The notes beneath the pieces were generated by a model, which made no database searches, was not told where the DNA came from, and saw nothing but the letters and a program-made list of their open reading frames with translations. From an uncultured Clostridia bacterium (GTDB lineage: Bacteria > Bacillota > Clostridia > Oscillospirales > CAG-272), in assembly GCA_944392615.1 (NCBI GenBank), contig CALXXF010000007.1, positions 1-64,000 on the forward strand: 64,000 nucleotides of DNA, read 5' to 3'. A program made the position numbers and the translations under genes. Below are positions 1-12,503 of this stretch, piece by piece; the stretch's first letter is position 1; each line of letters begins with the position of its first letter.

Positions 1-81
1 GTTTCGTTTTTCACTGCCTTCTTTTCTTCATTCTATTCCTTTTTGTTTTTCTTTACCCCAACTATTGACAAAGAGCCCTTT

Positions 82-187
82 TTTCTTAAAAAACCGCGAC
101 AAACTTTTTTCTTAAAAAAACGCGACAAACTTTTTCTTAAAAAAATGCGTACAAAGTTCTTTCTTAAAAATGCGTACAAATTCCTTT
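82..187. repeat. Tandem repeat, four copies of about 26 bp
   Basis: The segment CTTAAAAAA followed by a GCG-ACAAA element recurs at positions 85, 111, 136 and 163, so the spacing is 25 to 27 bases. Copies one and two carry CGCGACAAAC; copies three and four carry TGCGTACAAA, which shows divergence within the array. The region is T/A rich and lies between the window edge and the terminator of the first gene. No coding role is credible: the minus-strand frame across it only gives lysine/arginine/phenylalanine repeats. Confidence 0.8.
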
Positions 188-251: not shown

Positions 252-291
252 AAAAGAAGCGGCAGGCATCTGCCCGCCGCTTCTTTTGCTT
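252..291 (-). terminator. Intrinsic terminator of the GH106-like gene
   Basis: A 12-base arm at 252-263 pairs with 276-287 (AAAAGAAGCGGC against GCCGCTTCTTTT). Read on the minus strand the hairpin is followed by a T-rich run, as expected for the gene ending at 353. It is symmetrical enough to work on either strand. Confidence 0.75.
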
Positions 292-352: not shown

Positions 353-3298
353 TTATTCCGAAACTTCAACTAAGAACACCGATTCAACGGCGTCAAGCTC
401 AAGGGTGACCTTTGTAAGTCCGTCTGCAACTGTTGTCGTTGCTTTGACGGCCTCGCCTGTCATGGGATCCCAGAATTCAAGGTTTTCAAACTCGCCTGCT
501 ATCGTAACCTCGGTGCTCACCTTTGTGTCGGAGGAGTTAGCGAAGAAGTAAATGTTGACGCCGTGGTTGACCTTGTGGATATAGGTGAGGTTTCCTCCCG
601 AAACATTAACTGCCCCTATGTTGACATCATAGCTGTCAAACGCTTTGTTTACCAGAGATTTGAAAGCAGCTGTGTTGGTAGCGTGATATGCGGCTCCGCC
701 CTTGTCGTTGGTATTTACGCTCTGGGCAGTGGAGGTGTTTCCGAACATGTCGGATATTATCTTCCTCACGCTCTCGTCGTCCTCGGCGCGCGTAGCCTGG
801 TCGGGGAGAGTTCCTACGGAGATGACGACTCCGCCGTTCTGGTAGAACTCGTATATCTTCTCAAGGTTTGAAAGGCTTATGACCTTCATGGAGGGTATTA
901 CGATGAGCTTGTAATTCTCGTAGTTGACCTCATTTTCAAGATGGAGTATATTGCCGTTCACCGTGCACTTTTCATCCAGAACGGAGGGGTGCAGGTATGT
1001 GAAGTCTATTCTCAGCTCTGTGGAAAGAATATCGGTGAGAGTGATGTAATTGCTGTCTGAGGGCACGTTGTAGCCGCCGTTGAATATATATACTGATTCA
1101 AGGTAATCAATGGGGTAGAGAACAGCCACATCAGCGACGTGCCTGCCGCCCTGAAGCATTACCGAAAGTCTTGATGTGTATTCGTTGTATGTCGGAAGCT
1201 CCTCTGCGTAGCGCGGGTTTCTGTATGACAGCTCCGGAGGATATACAACGTTGTTGACGTTGTCATACCACACGGCGTGAGGAACTATGAGGTTTATGCC
1301 CTTTGCATAGAGGTCCATTGCGGTTTTGTAGAGATGTGACACGGGAAGATTTGCTCCCATGGCTCCGTATGTCTCGGATGCAACAAGCTCCTTGTCCCAG
1401 TTGTATGCAGCTGAGGAAATGACCTTGTAGTAAAGCTCTGTCATTCCGAATCTGTCAATGACGTCGACGGCCGGGATAGACTGATACTTGAAGCAGTACA
1501 TGAGGTCGCCGGAGATGCCTACGGGGTTCTCGACGTCTTCCATAAGCATGTGGCCCATAAGCTGTATTCCGTGCTCCTCGCACCAGTCGGTTATCTGACC
1601 AAGATAATTCTTTGCGAACATTTCGGTGCGTACGGACTGGAGCATATCTCTTGCTTCGTTGGTGTTTTCGCCTATGTCATACCAGAGTGCGGCATAGAGC
1701 AGAACAGGGTTTATGTCGTCGCCGTACATCTGGGCAAAATATTCGTTGAAATCGTCGGTCCACATGCGTGCGCCTTCGACTCCGTATGCGGTGAGTCCTC
1801 CTGCGGGCCAGAACGAAGGTTCGTCGTAGAAGGCGGAGGTGATGGTGCCGTTGTCAAAGTACTCTTTGAATCTCTTGTAGTATCCTTCGTAGGTTATTTC
1901 TATGAAGCCGGCGACTGCCTCTTCGCTGAGGTAGTCCATACCGGTGCATCCTTCGTAAACGCAGACAAACGCCATGAGACGCCATCCGCTCCCGCTCACG
2001 GGATACTCTACGTATGAGCCCTTGTAATTTGAGTTGTCCTGAGCCGCCGCTATGACCTTGCCGTCTCCGTAAACCTCAAATTCGTTTATCGAAACAGTGT
2101 CTCCGTTTGTTGTGTTTACATACAGCCTCATTCCGTAGGCGGTGACAGGCTCAAAGCTGAGCTCCTTGCCCTGCGTGCCTATGGTCGTTCCGCTTGCGCA
2201 GTCTATCCAGTTTCCTTTTTCGTCCATGTACTGGATTTTGAAGGAGCGCACGCGGTCAAAGGATTCATATATGAATACTGTATCAACAGTCTTTGCCTCG
2301 TTGTAAACGACGGCAAGCCACTGATTGCCGGCCGTTCCCTGACCTGCGTTCCACCTGGAGGAGCTGCTTCCGTCAAATGCAAGGTCGGCTGTGTAGGATT
2401 CAGAATAATCGCTTGATGATGAATAGGTGAATTCGGATTCCGATTCATCCTTTATAACCGCCATCTGGGGCGCAGGGATCATCTCGCCGTTGTCGTAGAG
2501 AGCTATCTCGGAAATGGTGGCGCTGTCTCCAACTACCTTTGTAAAGACAATGCGTACAAACTGCGCCTCTATCTCGTCAAATTCAAGAGTGACTCCGCTT
2601 CCGGTGATTTTTCCGCCCTCGGTAGCTGTCACCCACTCGTCATTTTCCTCGTCGTACCAGTTGAACTCAAACGCGCTGACTCTCCAGAGCGATTGCAGCG
2701 TAGGCTCGGTTATCTTTATTGAGTCTATCTTTATTTTCTCGCCGTAGTTTATCTGTATGTAGCTTCCGCTTCCGGTATAGCCTTCGGCGTTCCAACGGGT
2801 TGACTGGTTGCCGTCAAACGCCTTTGCAAGGTCGTAGCCGGGCTCGTTAGAAAACGTACTTGATGCGAGAGCGCCAAGAGGCTGCGTCTCGGTATCAAAG
2901 TCCGGAAGCTCAACAAGAACAGCCTTGTCGCTTATGTCTATCATTTCCTTCGTCTCGGTGTTGAAGGCTACGGCTCCCATGAATGTGCCCTGCGGGATCC
3001 TCAGGAATATTTTTCCGTCCGATACTATCGAGGCTTCCGCAAGGTCGAGTCTTTTGGCGGTCAGCTCGGGGTATTTCTCGGCAAAAAGTTCGCCTGCGGT
3101 ATAGCTCGGAAATCCGTTTTCGTCATAAAGCGAAAACTGCATTCCATATTTGCTGCCTTCGTCAAGAGCGGCTTCATAAAGCTCAAAATATTTTTCGCTC
3201 ATGTAGTCGTCCATCCAGTAGGGTAGGATCCCAAAGCCTGTATATCCGCTTTGCAGATAAGATTCGCGAACTATTTCGCGCACCTGATCGGTTGTCAT
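353..3298 (-). CDS. GH106-like glycoside hydrolase with two nested discoidin (F5/8 type C) domains; main open part of a gene interrupted by TGA
   Basis: This 981-codon frame holds most of a large carbohydrate-active protein. Residues 1-90 (motifs GFGILPYWMDD and YDENGFPSYTAG) and about 445-800 (AFYDEPSFW, GHMLMEDVENP) resemble the TIM-barrel of alpha-L-rhamnosidase-like GH106 proteins; the C-terminus (about 870-981) is a beta-sandwich. Two discoidin-type modules, at about 140-270 and 290-415, each with an AFDG...RWNA-type signature, sit inside the barrel sequence. The ATG at 3298 has no ribosome site: upstream the same frame continues through a TGA at 3323-3325 into a lipoprotein signal peptide (3323-3598), so the intact ancestor was one 3246-bp gene. 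An AraC regulator lies just upstream on the same strand. Family is inferred by eye; substrate is not determined, though rhamnosides are the family precedent. Confidence 0.75.
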   Translation of the reverse strand: MTTDQVREIVRESYLQSGYTGFGILPYWMDDYMSEKYFELYEAALDEGSKYGMQFSLYDENGFPSYTAGELFAEKYPELTAKRLDLAEASIVSDGKIFLRIPQGTFMGAVAFNTETKEMIDISDKAVLVELPDFDTETQPLGALASSTFSNEPGYDLAKAFDGNQSTRWNAEGYTGSGSYIQINYGEKIKIDSIKITEPTLQSLWRVSAFEFNWYDEENDEWVTATEGGKITGSGVTLEFDEIEAQFVRIVFTKVVGDSATISEIALYDNGEMIPAPQMAVIKDESESEFTYSSSSDYSESYTADLAFDGSSSSRWNAGQGTAGNQWLAVVYNEAKTVDTVFIYESFDRVRSFKIQYMDEKGNWIDCASGTTIGTQGKELSFEPVTAYGMRLYVNTTNGDTVSINEFEVYGDGKVIAAAQDNSNYKGSYVEYPVSGSGWRLMAFVCVYEGCTGMDYLSEEAVAGFIEITYEGYYKRFKEYFDNGTITSAFYDEPSFWPAGGLTAYGVEGARMWTDDFNEYFAQMYGDDINPVLLYAALWYDIGENTNEARDMLQSVRTEMFAKNYLGQITDWCEEHGIQLMGHMLMEDVENPVGISGDLMYCFKYQSIPAVDVIDRFGMTELYYKVISSAAYNWDKELVASETYGAMGANLPVSHLYKTAMDLYAKGINLIVPHAVWYDNVNNVVYPPELSYRNPRYAEELPTYNEYTSRLSVMLQGGRHVADVAVLYPIDYLESVYIFNGGYNVPSDSNYITLTDILSTELRIDFTYLHPSVLDEKCTVNGNILHLENEVNYENYKLIVIPSMKVISLSNLEKIYEFYQNGGVVISVGTLPDQATRAEDDESVRKIISDMFGNTSTAQSVNTNDKGGAAYHATNTAAFKSLVNKAFDSYDVNIGAVNVSGGNLTYIHKVNHGVNIYFFANSSDTKVSTEVTIAGEFENLEFWDPMTGEAVKATTTVADGLTKVTLELDAVESVFLVEVSE

Positions 3299-3322
3299 GC
3301 TGTCAAGGTCGGTGTTCCAGAA

Positions 3323-3598
3323 TCAAAGCGGCTTTGTAGTGAGGTTCTTATCCGGCTCGCTGAACTGCGGATAAAGCTCTTCTTCGCTTACGCCTGCAGT
3401 CTGTCCGCCGGTATCTTCCGGGCTGGAAGAAGTGGTTACATCCTGTGTCATTGTATCGTCTCCTCCGCTCTCTGTCGTACCTCCGGGAGTTGGATCTGTG
3501 GTCTCTCCCGAAGAAGTTTCTACATTATTATTGCCACAAGAAGTTATGAGCAATAATGATAGAAAAACGGACATAACGAGTATCAGTAATTTCTTCAT
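3323..3598 (-). pseudogene. N-terminal lipoprotein leader of the GH106-like gene, cut off by in-frame TGA
   Basis: A 91-residue product starts with a classical lipoprotein signal (MKKLL, hydrophobic core, lipobox ITSC with Cys21) followed by a Ser/Thr/Gly/Pro-rich linker. It ends ...TTKPL-stop, and the next codons in the same frame read FWNTDLD. GH106-like proteins typically have a W-F-W-N type motif just where the stop lies, so TGA replaces an expected TGG. The ribosome site (AAAGGG, about 9 bases upstream) and the promoter at 3633-3661 look sound. If translation stops here, only a short lipoprotein would be made. If it reads through, a surface-anchored enzyme results. Confidence 0.8.
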
Positions 3599-3632: not shown

Positions 3633-3661
3633 ATTATACAATGACTTATGACAGCTATCAA
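3633..3661 (-). promoter_or_regulatory. Sigma-A promoter of the GH106-like gene
   Basis: On the minus strand TTGATA (3661-3656) is separated by 17 bases from TATAAT (3638-3633), 35 bases before the lipoprotein ATG. The GH106-like gene can thus be transcribed separately from the AraC gene that ends at 3685. Confidence 0.7.
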
Positions 3662-3684: not shown

Positions 3685-4575
3685 TTAAAATTGCTTTAAT
3701 TTTTCTTCCGGATTACTCCAGAGGTAGGACGTGCGTCTGTATGCTGACGGAGTCATGCCCGTTGTCTCGCCGAAAACTTTGGTAAAACGAGCCGGATTCG
3801 GAAAGCCCGCCATGTCGGATATTTCGTTTATCCTGTAGTCGGTTGTGACAAGGAGCTCTTTCGCCTTGTTTATGCGACAGAGCTGAACGTACTGATATGG
3901 AGACACTCCCATGTACTGCTTGAAAAGACGGATAAAGTAGAATTTTGACAGGTGTACTATCTGTGTCAGAAGGTCAATGCTTATGTCCTTTGAGAGATTC
4001 TCTTCAATATAATTACATGCAGCGGATATGGCATCTTTTCCGGACGCCGCTTTATCGTCCTCTGAGTACTTGGCGTTGAGCACGACAAGGAGCAGCCCCG
4101 ATATGGTGTGGCTTATTCTTGCGTATTTCTTTATGTCGTTTATCTTGTCTGCTGTTTCTCTTATTTCTTCAAAATACTTCGCCATTTTTATTTTTTCGCT
4201 TATACTCACAACAGACAGCTCTTCTGTCAGCGCCTCGGCGTACGGCTCCACGCCGGTGCCTGAGAAATGTATCCAGTAAAAGCACCAGGGCTCCTTTGAT
4301 ACCGTTCTGTAATCGTGCAAAAGGCTGCAGTTGAGCATGACCGCACTCCCGGCGGACATATGACGGGTCTTGTCCCCCACCTTTACAGTGCCACAGCCTG
4401 ATACCGTATAGATGAGAAGATACATATCCTTGCCGTCGCGTGTGGTGTAGTAACTGCTTCCGGCTTCAAAATATCCCTCCTCGTAAAGGCAGAAGGGAAA
4501 CATCTTGGCAAGCCTGTCTGCGGCGTGGATTCTCATGTAGGATTTTTCTGAAATGTCGAGTTTGTAGTCTAACAT
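3685..4575 (-). CDS. AraC-family transcriptional regulator
   Basis: The 296-residue protein has an N-terminal cupin-like sensor region (about 1-160) and a C-terminal pair of helix-turn-helix motifs (about 185-285) ending with the family signature around GFPNPARFTKVF and TGMTPSAYRR. The start ATG follows GGAGG with 6 bases between. It lies 86 bases upstream of the lipoprotein leader of the GH106-like gene, on the same strand, and heads a roughly 1-kb divergent region shared with the discoidin-protein gene. This placement suggests local control of one or both sugar-acting genes; the inducer cannot be read from sequence. Confidence 0.9.
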   Translation of the reverse strand: MLDYKLDISEKSYMRIHAADRLAKMFPFCLYEEGYFEAGSSYYTTRDGKDMYLLIYTVSGCGTVKVGDKTRHMSAGSAVMLNCSLLHDYRTVSKEPWCFYWIHFSGTGVEPYAEALTEELSVVSISEKIKMAKYFEEIRETADKINDIKKYARISHTISGLLLVVLNAKYSEDDKAASGKDAISAACNYIEENLSKDISIDLLTQIVHLSKFYFIRLFKQYMGVSPYQYVQLCRINKAKELLVTTDYRINEISDMAGFPNPARFTKVFGETTGMTPSAYRRTSYLWSNPEEKLKQF

Positions 4576-5549: not shown

Positions 5550-5765
5550 ATGAGTATGAAGAAAACTGTACGCAGGTCGCTTGCGTTGCTGCTCCTGTTT
5601 ACAATGATCCTTTCAATGATCCCGGCATTTTCAGTAGTTGCTACCGATGAGGGTCAGGAAACCTACGACCTTACCGCCAAGGGCGGAAATCTCGCGCGTC
5701 TTGACGGCGTGGAGATTATATACCAGTATGAACCGCACGCCGATGCAAACTGGGGCTGGGATTAA
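5550..5765 (+). pseudogene. N-terminal part of the discoidin-domain protein, cut off by in-frame TAA
   Basis: Starting at ATG 5550, preferred over the GTG at 5541 because of the AAGGAAAG site, this frame encodes an export signal peptide (MSMKKTVRRSLALLLLF..., cleavage likely near FSVVATDEG) and the first strand of a discoidin-like domain. It ends at TAA 5763-5765 after NWGWD. The next codons in the same frame, KRLNDGDMNVN, continue the domain without a gap. The natural product is therefore split by a single stop codon; AAA, CAA or GAA are the closest sense codons. Confidence 0.8.
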
Positions 5766-5786
5766 AAAAGGCTCAATGACGGCGAC

Positions 5787-7544
5787 ATGAATGTCAACAG
5801 TGACGGCAGCAACGGCGGCTATCATTCAAACCTTAATTATTACGGCAGCAATCATTCGGAGTGGGTGGGCTATAAATTCCCTGAGCCTCAGACTATAGAT
5901 ACCCTTGTGGTCTATCCCTGCCTTGAGCAGAACGGAGCCACGCCCATTGTCGGCATGCCCAACGCCTTTGCAGTAGAGGTTTCGCTCGACGGCAACGACT
6001 GGATCAGGGTGTATGAGGAGTATTGCTTCGACGCTCCGTCAAAGTTCGGCCCCCAGACCTTCCAGTTTGAGGAGGTCACAGTCAGCTATGTGAGGTTTGT
6101 AGCTCTCTCGCTCAACAGGAGCACTGCGGGCACATGGGCAATGAAGCTCTGCGAGATGGCTGTTTATAACACCGATTACGTGCCTGTAGTCGAGCCTGTC
6201 TCTGTGAATGTTCTGCGCGGAGCCAAGGTGGAAAGCAACTCTACTCACACCGACGGTCCATGGAATCTTGTGAACATAAACGACGGAGACAGGTACAATC
6301 TTGTCACGACGTCGGCTGACTACGGTCAGTTTGCCGGATACCACACAAGTCCGTCCACTGCTGCCGGAACCGACGTATATATATCGTTTGACCTCGGCGG
6401 CGAAAAATACGTAGACCAGCTTGTGGTCGTGCCCGGAACGGAAAAATATTCAAAAAATTATCAGAATGCATCTATATTCTATTTCCCCACCGACTTTGAA
6501 GTGCAGGTGTCGGACGACGGTAACGATTGGACGACCGTGGCAAGTGAAAGCGGATATGTGCTCGATGAATACAAAGACGTTGTAATCGATTTTGACAGAA
6601 CAGAGACGTCGTACATTAGATTCTACATGAAGGCTATACCCGGCCATATCAAGCTCTCCGAAATAGAGGCGTATGACACCGAGACGCTTGTCACTCCGGG
6701 CGAGACGGTCGTAAAGCCGGGCGTCAACCTGGCATACGGAGCAAGCGCTACGGCGAGCTCGTACATATCCGACCAGTACTGGAGCCCTGCGCTTCTCGTG
6801 AACGGGATAATAGAGGAGTCCGGAGGCTTCACCACGCAGAACGTATCGAGCGCATGGGTAGGAGTATCCTTTGACTCTCCCACGGTCGTCAACACTATGA
6901 AGCTCTATTCGGCTTCCACCGGCGACGACGAAGGGACCTGGTCCGGAATACCCGAGGGCTTCAAGATAGAATACACGACAAACGGTCTCAACTGGTATCC
7001 CGTTTCGGATGTGACTCTCTCTGCGATACCGTCAGGTCAGGAAGCAGTAGAAGTCTCGTTTGAGACTGTCACGGTAAAGGGAATCAGGATAAATTCCGAC
7101 ACGCTTTACCCGAAGCCTTCCGACAGCGGGCGCACATATATCCAGCTTGCCGAGATGGAATTGTTCTACGATCCCTACAAGCTCGGAAGCTATGACAGCT
7201 TTGCTGCATACTATCAGAAGAAGGAAGAGAGCGACTCGACTCACGCTATGAGAGTCATTATAGCGGCGAGCGAGAACGGAATAAACGCCCTTACCGCCGG
7301 TATGAAGGTAAAGATCACCTTCAATCTCGAAGACGGTACGAAAAAGTCGACCGAGGGAACTCTCGGAGAAGAGTATTCGCTGTTCAGAAGCGTTATGGCA
7401 GCCGGCGACCAGTATACCGCAGTTGATGGCTGCGCACTCTTCGGCTGTGTCATAACCGGCATACCGAACGACGCATATCAGACTGTCACCGTCGAGATTA
7501 CAGACAGCTCCACAGGCTCTGTCATTTTTTCTGCACAGAACTGA
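5787..7544 (+). CDS. Discoidin (F5/8 type C) multi-domain exported protein, main open part
   Basis: This 585-codon frame continues the sequence begun at 5550. It contains three beta-sandwich carbohydrate-binding modules of the F5/8 type C class: the one shared with the upstream fragment (to about residue 135), one at about 145-300 (FDLGGEKYVDQLVV) and one at about 315-470 (WVGVSFDSPTVVNTMKLY). A C-terminal stretch of about 110 residues has no obvious family. No catalytic domain, LPXTG motif or membrane anchor is visible, so the protein looks like a secreted glycan-binding or scaffold protein. The ATG at 5787 has no ribosome site; it is in frame with the upstream signal peptide across the TAA at 5763. 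It is followed by a strong terminator at 7731. Confidence 0.75.
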   Translation: MNVNSDGSNGGYHSNLNYYGSNHSEWVGYKFPEPQTIDTLVVYPCLEQNGATPIVGMPNAFAVEVSLDGNDWIRVYEEYCFDAPSKFGPQTFQFEEVTVSYVRFVALSLNRSTAGTWAMKLCEMAVYNTDYVPVVEPVSVNVLRGAKVESNSTHTDGPWNLVNINDGDRYNLVTTSADYGQFAGYHTSPSTAAGTDVYISFDLGGEKYVDQLVVVPGTEKYSKNYQNASIFYFPTDFEVQVSDDGNDWTTVASESGYVLDEYKDVVIDFDRTETSYIRFYMKAIPGHIKLSEIEAYDTETLVTPGETVVKPGVNLAYGASATASSYISDQYWSPALLVNGIIEESGGFTTQNVSSAWVGVSFDSPTVVNTMKLYSASTGDDEGTWSGIPEGFKIEYTTNGLNWYPVSDVTLSAIPSGQEAVEVSFETVTVKGIRINSDTLYPKPSDSGRTYIQLAEMELFYDPYKLGSYDSFAAYYQKKEESDSTHAMRVIIAASENGINALTAGMKVKITFNLEDGTKKSTEGTLGEEYSLFRSVMAAGDQYTAVDGCALFGCVITGIPNDAYQTVTVEITDSSTGSVIFSAQN

Positions 7545-9431: not shown

Positions 9432-12400
9432 TTACATACCGGAACCGTCGTACGGTCCGCCGACAACCGCCGCTTCATAGACAAGTTTCCATCCGTCGTC
9501 GGTGAGCCCGAACCCGTACGTGCCGTCTCCCTCGTAGTAAACGTTTTCTTCACCGGTGAATTTAATCACATCCGCAAGTTTTGGCAAATTGGTTGATGAC
9601 GTTGCGTTTGACCTTGAATTGGGAACAAGAGCAAGCTCAGGGGCTATCCAGTTATACAGAGTTCTCAGGTAGTTGAACGCATGGTGTGATACCTGAACGA
9701 TGTCGCTTTTGAATGTATCGGGAGACCGGTACATGGAGGTGATTATTGCCTCAGCCTCTGTATCCGTGTCGCCGAGAAGCATGAAGGCGCTCTGGTTTAT
9801 CGTTATCTTCAGAACGGTGGAGGTGCTGTTAAAGTTCGTTACAGAGCAGGATGAGGGCCTTGATGCTGTGACTGCGTCCTCGTGCGTGTACATCACTTCG
9901 ATTTGCAAATCTCCCAAGTTGAAGTTCATACCTGTGTGAGGCTTCATGAATACGGCGTTGTCGTAATATGTCGTTACAATATGCTTGAACCATGTTGTGG
10001 GAAATGCGCGGTATCCGCTTTTGACGGTCTGGAATGACGGGAAATTGAACATTACTCTCTCAAGGTCAATTTCATCGTGGTATCTGTGAAGCAGCTTCGC
10101 CGCAAGCATCAGATGGTCGGCGTGGGCGTGTGTTATGAACCATGCTGATATGGTAATACGTTCGTCTTCCGCGGTCTCTGTTATCTCGTGCATAAATGAC
10201 ATGAGCTCATCGGTAGCAGCGTCTGTTGCCTGGAATTGGTGACCGCCGTCTATTACGAACAGACTGTTGTCAGACTGTTTTATTATGTAAATCATTCCGC
10301 AGTCCATGGTGGTATGTGTGTTTCCGGCCTGATAAAGACCAAACTGATATATTTTTGTGCTCCCGTTGTAATCGCAGGTGTAGGAGAATTGGCTCAGATT
10401 GGCGTCGGAAGACCTGTCATCGATGATTTTGGCAGTGGAAAGCGAGTTTATATAGTATGCATAAATGAGCTTTCCTCCGCCTTCATATTGAATATAGATG
10501 TTTTCTTCGGTGGTACTTTCAAATGTCTTTTTGTATCCCAAAGCAGACAATTTTTCCGAATAGGCAATAAACTCGTCGGCACTTGTTCTTGCCACTGTCT
10601 GCATGAAGGAATCCGATGAGGTGTACCCGGTAGTATCACTTGATAAATCGGTTCCGCAGTTATATACGCCTTTTGAAAGTATCCCGCCCTCGTATGACGG
10701 TATCCCTTCCAGCAGCCATCCGTCTCTTACATTTTCTTCGGGTATTATTTCTCCCTCCTGCGGGGTAGACGTGTCGTCCGGGTTTTCAGCTGATGTGTCG
10801 TCCGGGCTTTCAGCCGACGTGTCGTCCGGGCTTTCAGCTGATGTGTCGTCCGGGCTTTCAGCCGACGTGTCGTACTCGCTCGTGGTATCTGAAGATGTTA
10901 CATCCGCCGGCTTTTTCTCACATGAGTACAGTGAAAATGCCGTTGTGGCGCTCAGAAGAACAAAAAACATGGCGATGCTGGTGCTCTTTTTGATTTTACC
11001 GGTCGCGGCAAGCAAAATCAGTAAAACCAGAACTACAAGTAACACTGCTACCGCTGCTATTATTCCGATATATGAGGTTTTATTTGTTTCCTGAGCCGCC
11101 TGTATGCCGTTTTCTGCAGTGAAACCGGTTTTAACTTCATCTATTGTACCGGCACTGTATGCGGAAGAAATCATCTGGCTGCCGTCTGCCGCCTGGTTTC
11201 CGTCTGCCGCCTGGCTGCCATCTGCCGTCGACCCGGCATCCGGGACGGGTGCAATGCTTTGAGAGCTGTTTTGCTCTTTTCTGCTGAGAAAAGCGTACTG
11301 CTGAGGATCCCCGTACAGTTCAAACTCATATACCGAGCCGGGTCCGTTTTCAGACGTAGCGTATATTTCAAGCTTGAAATATCTTGCAGTTACAGGTTCA
11401 AAGGTTATGGTGTCTGTTATGGGTGAAGACGGGCTTCCGTCCCCATCCTGCCGTTTGAGTGCAGAGAGCTTTATTTCCGTGAAATTCTCTTTGTCGTCGG
11501 AAATAAATAGCTTATAGTATCCGATTGCTCCGCAGTCTTTTCCCCATATTATCCGTGCTCCGTCTATTGTTGTGGGTATTTCAAATTCAAGACAGAGCCA
11601 CGGATAACTGCCGTACGGATTGGCATACAGCCCTGTGTTGAGGTCCTTCTTAACAGAGGCTCCGGAAACCCAACAAGATCCTGAGAGCACGTCTCCGTCT
11701 ACCGCCGTTACGGCGATTGTCCCCTGGTCCTTGTATGAGTCCTGTGTTGCAAACGAATATCCTGACAGATTTTCATATCCCGGCGTGGGAAATTCCCCGA
11801 TATCCGAGGGAAGTTCCGGGACTGTCTCCGGAAGCTCTATTCCCGTGTCTTCGGCAATGCCCTCTCGCGGGTCACCTACAAAGACGGCTATCTGGGATAC
11901 GGCTATATCTATGCTGTTTCCTGATCCGGATGCTCCGTTATAATAAACCTGGTTGTTGATTTTCACCGTATTATACCCTGAAAAGCCGAAAAACCTTTCT
12001 TCGGCTACATAATAAACATACGTCCAACCATCCTCGTCATAATCAAACTGTCTTACTTCTCCGGCTGTAAACACGAGGCGGTCTTTCTCTTCGTCGTTTA
12101 TCTTTTTATCGTCACCGTAAATTATCTGCTGAAATCCGAAGACGTCGGCATAATCCGGAGTCGTGCCATCGTCAGAAAGAATTTTTACGCGGTATCGTAT
12201 TACAATATCCTCACCGTTTGTTTTTATGCCGCTGGCAGTGAAATTCTTTATAGGGCGTACGCCTTCGTTCACGCCGTGGATAAGGGTGCGGTAACCGCCC
12301 TCTTCGTTTGTGTATCCGGCACCACCGGTATTTCCTCCCACCGATTCTCCGCAATTCAAAGCCTCCTGACTCCATTCAATAACCATCTGTGCTCCTGAAT

Positions 12401-12503
12401 CCGCAAAAACCGTTGTCCCTGTGTACAGGAGCATGGTGAGAACAAGAATGGATATTATGAGAATGACGGGTGTCTTACACCTGGGCATTTTGCTTTTTTT
12501 CAA
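9432..12503 (-). CDS. Two-part membrane protein: discoidin-like ectodomain, membrane hairpin with internal lipobox, extracytoplasmic MBL-fold hydrolase
   Basis: The 1023-residue product starts at TTG (GGAAG 12 bases upstream). It has a signal peptide (1-35), an ectodomain with a discoidin-like module (about 268-400), a low-complexity linker, a transmembrane helix (about 480-505), the basic loop KIKK, a second hydrophobic stretch and a lipobox-like LYSC with Cys528. An acidic Ser/Asp repeat (TSAESPDD) follows, then a metallo-beta-lactamase fold with the metal motif THAHADH (about 786-792), the upstream DGGH, and a late SHHAF. Apparent topology puts both large parts outside. It looks like a membrane-anchored protein fused to a lipoprotein MBL hydrolase resembling ComEC/Rec2-type domains. 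A divergent AraC regulator begins 187 bases away. Substrate unknown. Confidence 0.75.
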   Translation of the reverse strand: MKKSKMPRCKTPVILIISILVLTMLLYTGTTVFADSGAQMVIEWSQEALNCGESVGGNTGGAGYTNEEGGYRTLIHGVNEGVRPIKNFTASGIKTNGEDIVIRYRVKILSDDGTTPDYADVFGFQQIIYGDDKKINDEEKDRLVFTAGEVRQFDYDEDGWTYVYYVAEERFFGFSGYNTVKINNQVYYNGASGSGNSIDIAVSQIAVFVGDPREGIAEDTGIELPETVPELPSDIGEFPTPGYENLSGYSFATQDSYKDQGTIAVTAVDGDVLSGSCWVSGASVKKDLNTGLYANPYGSYPWLCLEFEIPTTIDGARIIWGKDCGAIGYYKLFISDDKENFTEIKLSALKRQDGDGSPSSPITDTITFEPVTARYFKLEIYATSENGPGSVYEFELYGDPQQYAFLSRKEQNSSQSIAPVPDAGSTADGSQAADGNQAADGSQMISSAYSAGTIDEVKTGFTAENGIQAAQETNKTSYIGIIAAVAVLLVVLVLLILLAATGKIKKSTSIAMFFVLLSATTAFSLYSCEKKPADVTSSDTTSEYDTSAESPDDTSAESPDDTSAESPDDTSAENPDDTSTPQEGEIIPEENVRDGWLLEGIPSYEGGILSKGVYNCGTDLSSDTTGYTSSDSFMQTVARTSADEFIAYSEKLSALGYKKTFESTTEENIYIQYEGGGKLIYAYYINSLSTAKIIDDRSSDANLSQFSYTCDYNGSTKIYQFGLYQAGNTHTTMDCGMIYIIKQSDNSLFVIDGGHQFQATDAATDELMSFMHEITETAEDERITISAWFITHAHADHLMLAAKLLHRYHDEIDLERVMFNFPSFQTVKSGYRAFPTTWFKHIVTTYYDNAVFMKPHTGMNFNLGDLQIEVMYTHEDAVTASRPSSCSVTNFNSTSTVLKITINQSAFMLLGDTDTEAEAIITSMYRSPDTFKSDIVQVSHHAFNYLRTLYNWIAPELALVPNSRSNATSSTNLPKLADVIKFTGEENVYYEGDGTYGFGLTDDGWKLVYEAAVVGGPYDGSGM
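10778..10873. repeat. Coding 24-bp tandem repeat, four copies
   Basis: Units start at 10778, 10802, 10826 and 10850. They encode the eight-residue acidic linker DDTSAESP of the MBL protein just after its internal lipobox. Alternating copies differ at the same silent sites (GCTGAT against GCCGAC), which suggests duplication of a two-unit block. A shorter coding repeat (AADGNQ/AADGSQ) lies at about 11180-11225. Confidence 0.9.

Follow-up and report, generated by a model that had tools for sequence, protein, structure and literature searches.

In-frame stop codons in bacteria are commonly found in carbohydrate genes, and they persist mostly at the time scale of polymorphism (PMC7918605). The locus described here resembles the recent pseudogenes of that report, which are single nonsense alleles, in having one young stop in an otherwise intact carbohydrate gene, unshared with relatives; it differs in that two adjacent, linked genes have one stop each. 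As to the enzyme concerned, the closest described proteins belong to glycoside hydrolase family GH106, namely BT_0986 (structures 5mqm and 5mwk) and RHA-P (6q2f), and a Ram106B/Niabella subgroup of the family has also been described (PMC6828813). A different kind of precedent for an in-frame TGA is the UGA-suppressing tRNA-Trp of the Hirsh type, in which G24A has a suppressor effect in E. coli (PMC13092985). In a reporter in wild-type Bacillus subtilis, the quoted readthrough of UGA is about 6% (PMC7918605).

In the present study, we analysed a 64,000-nucleotide stretch (hereafter, the window) that starts at base 1 of contig C7 of an uncultured Clostridia bacterium. It contains a GH106-like gene with an in-frame TGA and, nearby, a gene for a secreted discoidin-domain protein with an in-frame TAA. 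We consider it probable that the TGA arose by a recent nonsense mutation, which inactivated a GH106-type enzyme, and that the linked glycan-use locus has recently lost selection. If real, the locus captures, in a host-associated bacterium, a stage in the loss of glycan use at which the regulator is still intact. The TGA is an ordinary kind of event, made somewhat more telling by the second nonsense codon, and it poses no challenge to the genetic code.

A GH106-like lipoprotein gene interrupted by TGA

The features of the gene and its surroundings are as follows.

353..3598, minus strand: GH106-like secreted lipoprotein gene, 1,081 codons with one internal TGA (PF17132, PF00754, Foldseek)
3323..3325, minus strand: in-frame TGA, codon 92, in the context CTT TGA TTC; reads NLTTKPL*FWNTDLDSM
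3326..3598, minus strand: leader left by termination, 91 amino acids, with signal peptide, lipobox LLITSCG and low-complexity linker
353..3322, minus strand: remaining open frame, in which D592, E593, H683 and E742 are conserved
3633..3661, minus strand: promoter-like TTGATA-17-TATAAT preceding the gene, 11/12 sigma-70-like, consensus match only
252..287, minus strand: terminator-like hairpin of 16 pairs, 3' of the gene, consensus match only

When the TGA is translated through, the frame from the ATG at 3598 to the final TAA at 353-355 gives a product of 1,081 residues (1,082 codons including the final stop), and the TGA at 3325-3323 on the minus strand is the sole stop in between. An earlier sequence-only reading of this DNA had proposed that the TGA splits one lipoprotein frame, and this was confirmed by re-translation, coding scores and homologue alignment. 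The coding score was positive in the leader (13.3 for its final 60 codons) and strong in the body downstream of the TGA; both parts are coding. The promoter and ribosome site, which the same reading had called clean, are present as the element at 3661-3633 and as GAAAGGGTGCC upstream of the ATG at 3598. The frame 3' of the TGA is 989 codons long from stop to stop and opens directly after the TGA; thus, the ATG at 3298 is simply its first start codon. No Shine-Dalgarno-like sequence was found before the first in-frame starts past the TGA. An automated annotation would misleadingly list two products here, a small lipoprotein and an enzyme without a leader.

In the Pfam search, the read-through protein matched PF17132 (Glyco_hydro_106) with 104.7 bits against a cut-off of 29 (E 6.6e-30, residues 609-1051), and PF00754 (E 3.5e-28) matched at two F5/8-type C (discoidin) domains, which interrupt the sequence of the barrel. 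An AlphaFold2 model of this protein, built with 15 sequences, had a mean pLDDT of 74, with low confidence at residues 20-72. The top three PDB matches of the model in Foldseek were the GH106 structures 6q2f, 5mqm and 5mwk (E 2.8e-41 for 6q2f and 2.7e-34 for 5mqm), at a TM score of about 0.45 and with moderate model confidence. The model thus predicts an (alpha/beta)8 barrel like those of BT_0986 and RHA-P, and the Pfam match together with the top fold matches upheld the GH106-like assignment made from the letters alone.

D592-E593-P594, H683, E687 and E742 are kept across the aligned family. E742 belongs to the motif LVASE, which aligns with LVAAE in RHA-P; every homologue that covers this position has the glutamate, which would by analogy be the catalytic base. 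The product is therefore likened to BT_0986 and RHA-P by the Pfam match, the fold matches and this conserved glutamate, whereas the identity in the structural alignment is just 12-15%, and two discoidin domains lie within the barrel sequence here. Two further differences are E593, directly after D592, and H683, at a position occupied by Glu in RHA-P. Going by published motifs and not by a tree, this D-E pair and the His are more like those of the Ram106B/Niabella subgroup than like BT_0986 (PMC6828813). We regard the product as a predicted GH106 alpha-L-rhamnosidase-like secreted enzyme.

Close homologues from the same genus and family (52-64% identity) are all uninterrupted, and most were aligned over the full length; judged from the sequences, this alignment is far beyond chance. 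At the position of the TGA, four of the eight close homologues have Trp (TGG) and the other four Phe (TTC/TTT). The nearest homologue (64% identity) carries TGG, and more distant GH106 proteins with the WN motif also have Trp. The Phe-Trp-Asn that directly follows is invariant in the 15-sequence alignment. The sequence-only reading had expected a Trp at this site, conserved among homologues; a conserved aromatic residue was found, but not strictly Trp. Its proposal that TGG to TGA is the simplest change is likely correct, since TGG needs one change and TTC or TTT needs two. None of the homologues compared has a stop at this position.

In the model, the residue of codon 92 falls within the first barrel strand (91-93). 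Some leaderless homologues (L006) start a few residues ahead of the motif and still include it; thus, a restart at the ATG at 3298 would lose the first strand. A true gene boundary with a separate start, which the sequence-only reading had named as the result that would speak against it, was rejected, and the opposite was observed, since the frames of the close homologues continue across the site without a break. Intact orthologues together with a lineage-specific stop are what is expected of a recent nonsense pseudogene. No near match of the region was found in plasmids.

That reading had also offered a switchable strain difference, that is, a phase-variable allele flipping between stop and sense. 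Surface glycan genes are often phase-variable. At this site, however, a repeat scan detected neither tandem repeats nor closely spaced inverted ones, and a single-base change supplies no switch mechanism, so we consider such an allele extremely unlikely.

Reading of UGA in this genome

TGA was the commonest terminator, ending 113 of the 190 complete long ORFs in 368 kb of the genome including the window. All four bases occur after terminal TGA (26 cases are TGAT), and RF2 is present and intact (500 bits). These observations indicate that UGA terminates translation in this organism. Among 39 tRNAs, no UCA anticodon was found. The only tRNA-Trp has the CCA anticodon with an anticodon stem of five pairs (GCGGU/ACCGC); a tRNA-Trp with a 4-bp anticodon stem was thus rejected. 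Reassignment of UGA to Trp of the code 4 type does not agree with the terminator use, the RF2 or the tRNA set.

Other dedicated forms of recoding fared no better. In the case of selenocysteine, the tRNA-Sec profile gave weak, below-threshold matches that overlapped ordinary Leu, Ser and Gly tRNAs, and the SelB profile gave matches below the cut-off that were confined to the N-terminal half. No SECIS-type Rfam match was found, and the homologues have W or F at the site, never Cys. The words CTT TGA match the slippery site of prfB; a shift to +1 there would meet a TGA after nine codons, and it is frame 0 that encodes the body. The searches, the terminator use and the closed +1 frame led us to reject reassignment, selenocysteine and a programmed frameshift, and dedicated recoding of this UGA can practically be discounted.

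Leakage at an ordinary stop is a separate matter. In the genus, five sampled members gave a tRNA-Trp match, and every one of these carries U11-A24 (L054:280-355 (-); L129-L157), whereas C11-G24 was found in 19 of the 30 tRNA-Trp compared and in most of the order. The likeness to the Hirsh-type suppressor is the A at nucleotide 24, here paired with U11 (PMC13092985); the difference is that the state is fixed in the genus together with standard use of TGA as a stop, and any suppression is putative. It is plausible that UGA is read as Trp at a low level, and such leakage need not be functional. A selected allele, in which tRNA-Trp(CCA) reads UGA at a few per cent to give a low dose of the lipoprotein, would suit a site that accepts Trp, the genus-wide U11-A24 and the reporter value quoted for B. 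subtilis. We nevertheless consider it quite unlikely: strong leakage would be costly because TGA is the commonest ordinary stop, the tRNA-Trp retains the 5-bp stem, the stop occurs in no homologue and so shows no sign of maintenance, and the TAA of the neighbouring gene is unreadable by tRNA-Trp. It would be a broader proposal, and in our opinion a very improbable one, that the genus uses this tRNA-Trp under the standard code to set a low dose of surface glycan enzymes through leaky in-frame UGA codons at Trp sites. Translational readthrough, listed in the sequence-only reading as a possible cause, is therefore disfavoured by both the adjacent TAA and the normal use of TGA.

A second nonsense codon and the age of the locus

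The second interrupted gene and the regulator gene between the two are as follows.

5550..7544, plus strand: secreted protein with three discoidin domains, interrupted; signal peptide and ribosome site lie upstream of the stop
5763..5765, plus strand: in-frame TAA, codon 72 of the discoidin gene, NWGWD*KRLNDGD; missed in the sequence-only reading
3685..4575, minus strand: AraC-family regulator gene (HTH_18, AraC_binding), intact, between the two broken genes

The frame of the discoidin gene is intact on either side of the TAA, where homologues are open and have mostly Val, Ile or Leu. Two further species of the genus (L092; L093/L002) show the same order of GH106 and AraC genes, and a discoidin-family gene lies directly upstream of a GH106 gene in two related species. 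The two stops are 2.44 kb apart; for two random points, the probability of lying this close is 0.013 (a post hoc calculation).

We scanned 368 kb, sampled in stretches that included the window, for coding regions with internal stops, by a procedure that recovers about 65% of internal stops introduced artificially. The TAA at 5763-5765 was the second convincing case, and at this sensitivity no further one was found in the 368 kb. The other candidates were antisense to long ORFs, short intergenic frames or ordinary gene ends. A TGA in G000:C26:16240-16689 was rejected as the natural end of a 673-residue gene that the alignment had overrun. In genome-wide scans, no stop lay within the domain in 44 ABC-transporter matches or in 11 discoidin-domain matches.

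Of random substitutions in these frames, about 3-5% would produce another stop. Since neither gene has a further stop, each stop is recent, or the part downstream of it is still under selection. Under neutrality, 95% of copies would gain a further stop by a divergence of about 2-3% in the GH106 gene and 3.5-5% in the discoidin gene; thus, one stop per frame limits neutral ageing to roughly less than these values. The argument of the sequence-only reading against old decay holds in this respect.

The main rival explanation is a problem in the consensus, because both stops are located less than 6 kb from the contig end: one or both would be base-call or strain-mixing errors, and the genes would be intact. 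At its very end (window 78-180), the contig has an AT-rich repeat of about 25 bp in four copies (TTTCTTAAAAAA.CGCGACAAAC), both frames are otherwise perfect, and the closest relatives found are metagenome-assembled genomes, all of which would agree with an artefact. On the other hand, errors would be mostly silent, missense or indel, whereas here two single substitutions both give stops with no frameshift nearby. The remaining genes on the contig were clean in the scan, and the genome, in 56 contigs, has a completeness of 98% and a contamination of 0%. We therefore regard an artefact as unlikely, and suppose that the mutations exist in the organism.

Recent inactivation of the linked locus is favoured because the TAA is inexplicable by Trp readthrough. 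TGG in the GH106 gene would have changed to TGA by a recent mutation, and translation would now end after the 91-residue lipoprotein leader. If translation restarted, the product would lack both a leader and the first barrel strand, and no ribosome site is evident for it; thus, apart from traces made through UGA leakage, the cell is not expected to export a working enzyme. The adjacent discoidin gene would then have been hit independently by a single TAA, the loss of the first gene possibly having relaxed selection on the second. The small glycan-use locus has thus probably lost selection recently in the strain or species, with the AraC regulator and the reading frames otherwise intact. Two points speak against inactivation and decay: the body of the GH106 gene still looks fully coding, which suits a functional gene and a recent null equally, and the tRNA-Trp shared by the genus could permit some readthrough.

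In a related species, the orthologue of the interrupted discoidin gene (L114, G004:C155) has its own in-frame TAG at a different position, near the C-terminal domain (QLAEFER*YDMDL). In the window, a single ORF at 9435-12503 on the minus strand contains a discoidin domain, a transmembrane segment, an internal lipobox-like SLYSC and a metallo-beta-lactamase-like domain, and looks like two fused genes. Because a similar frame of 1,016 amino acids in a related species (G006) matches both halves, this fused architecture is probably ancestral.
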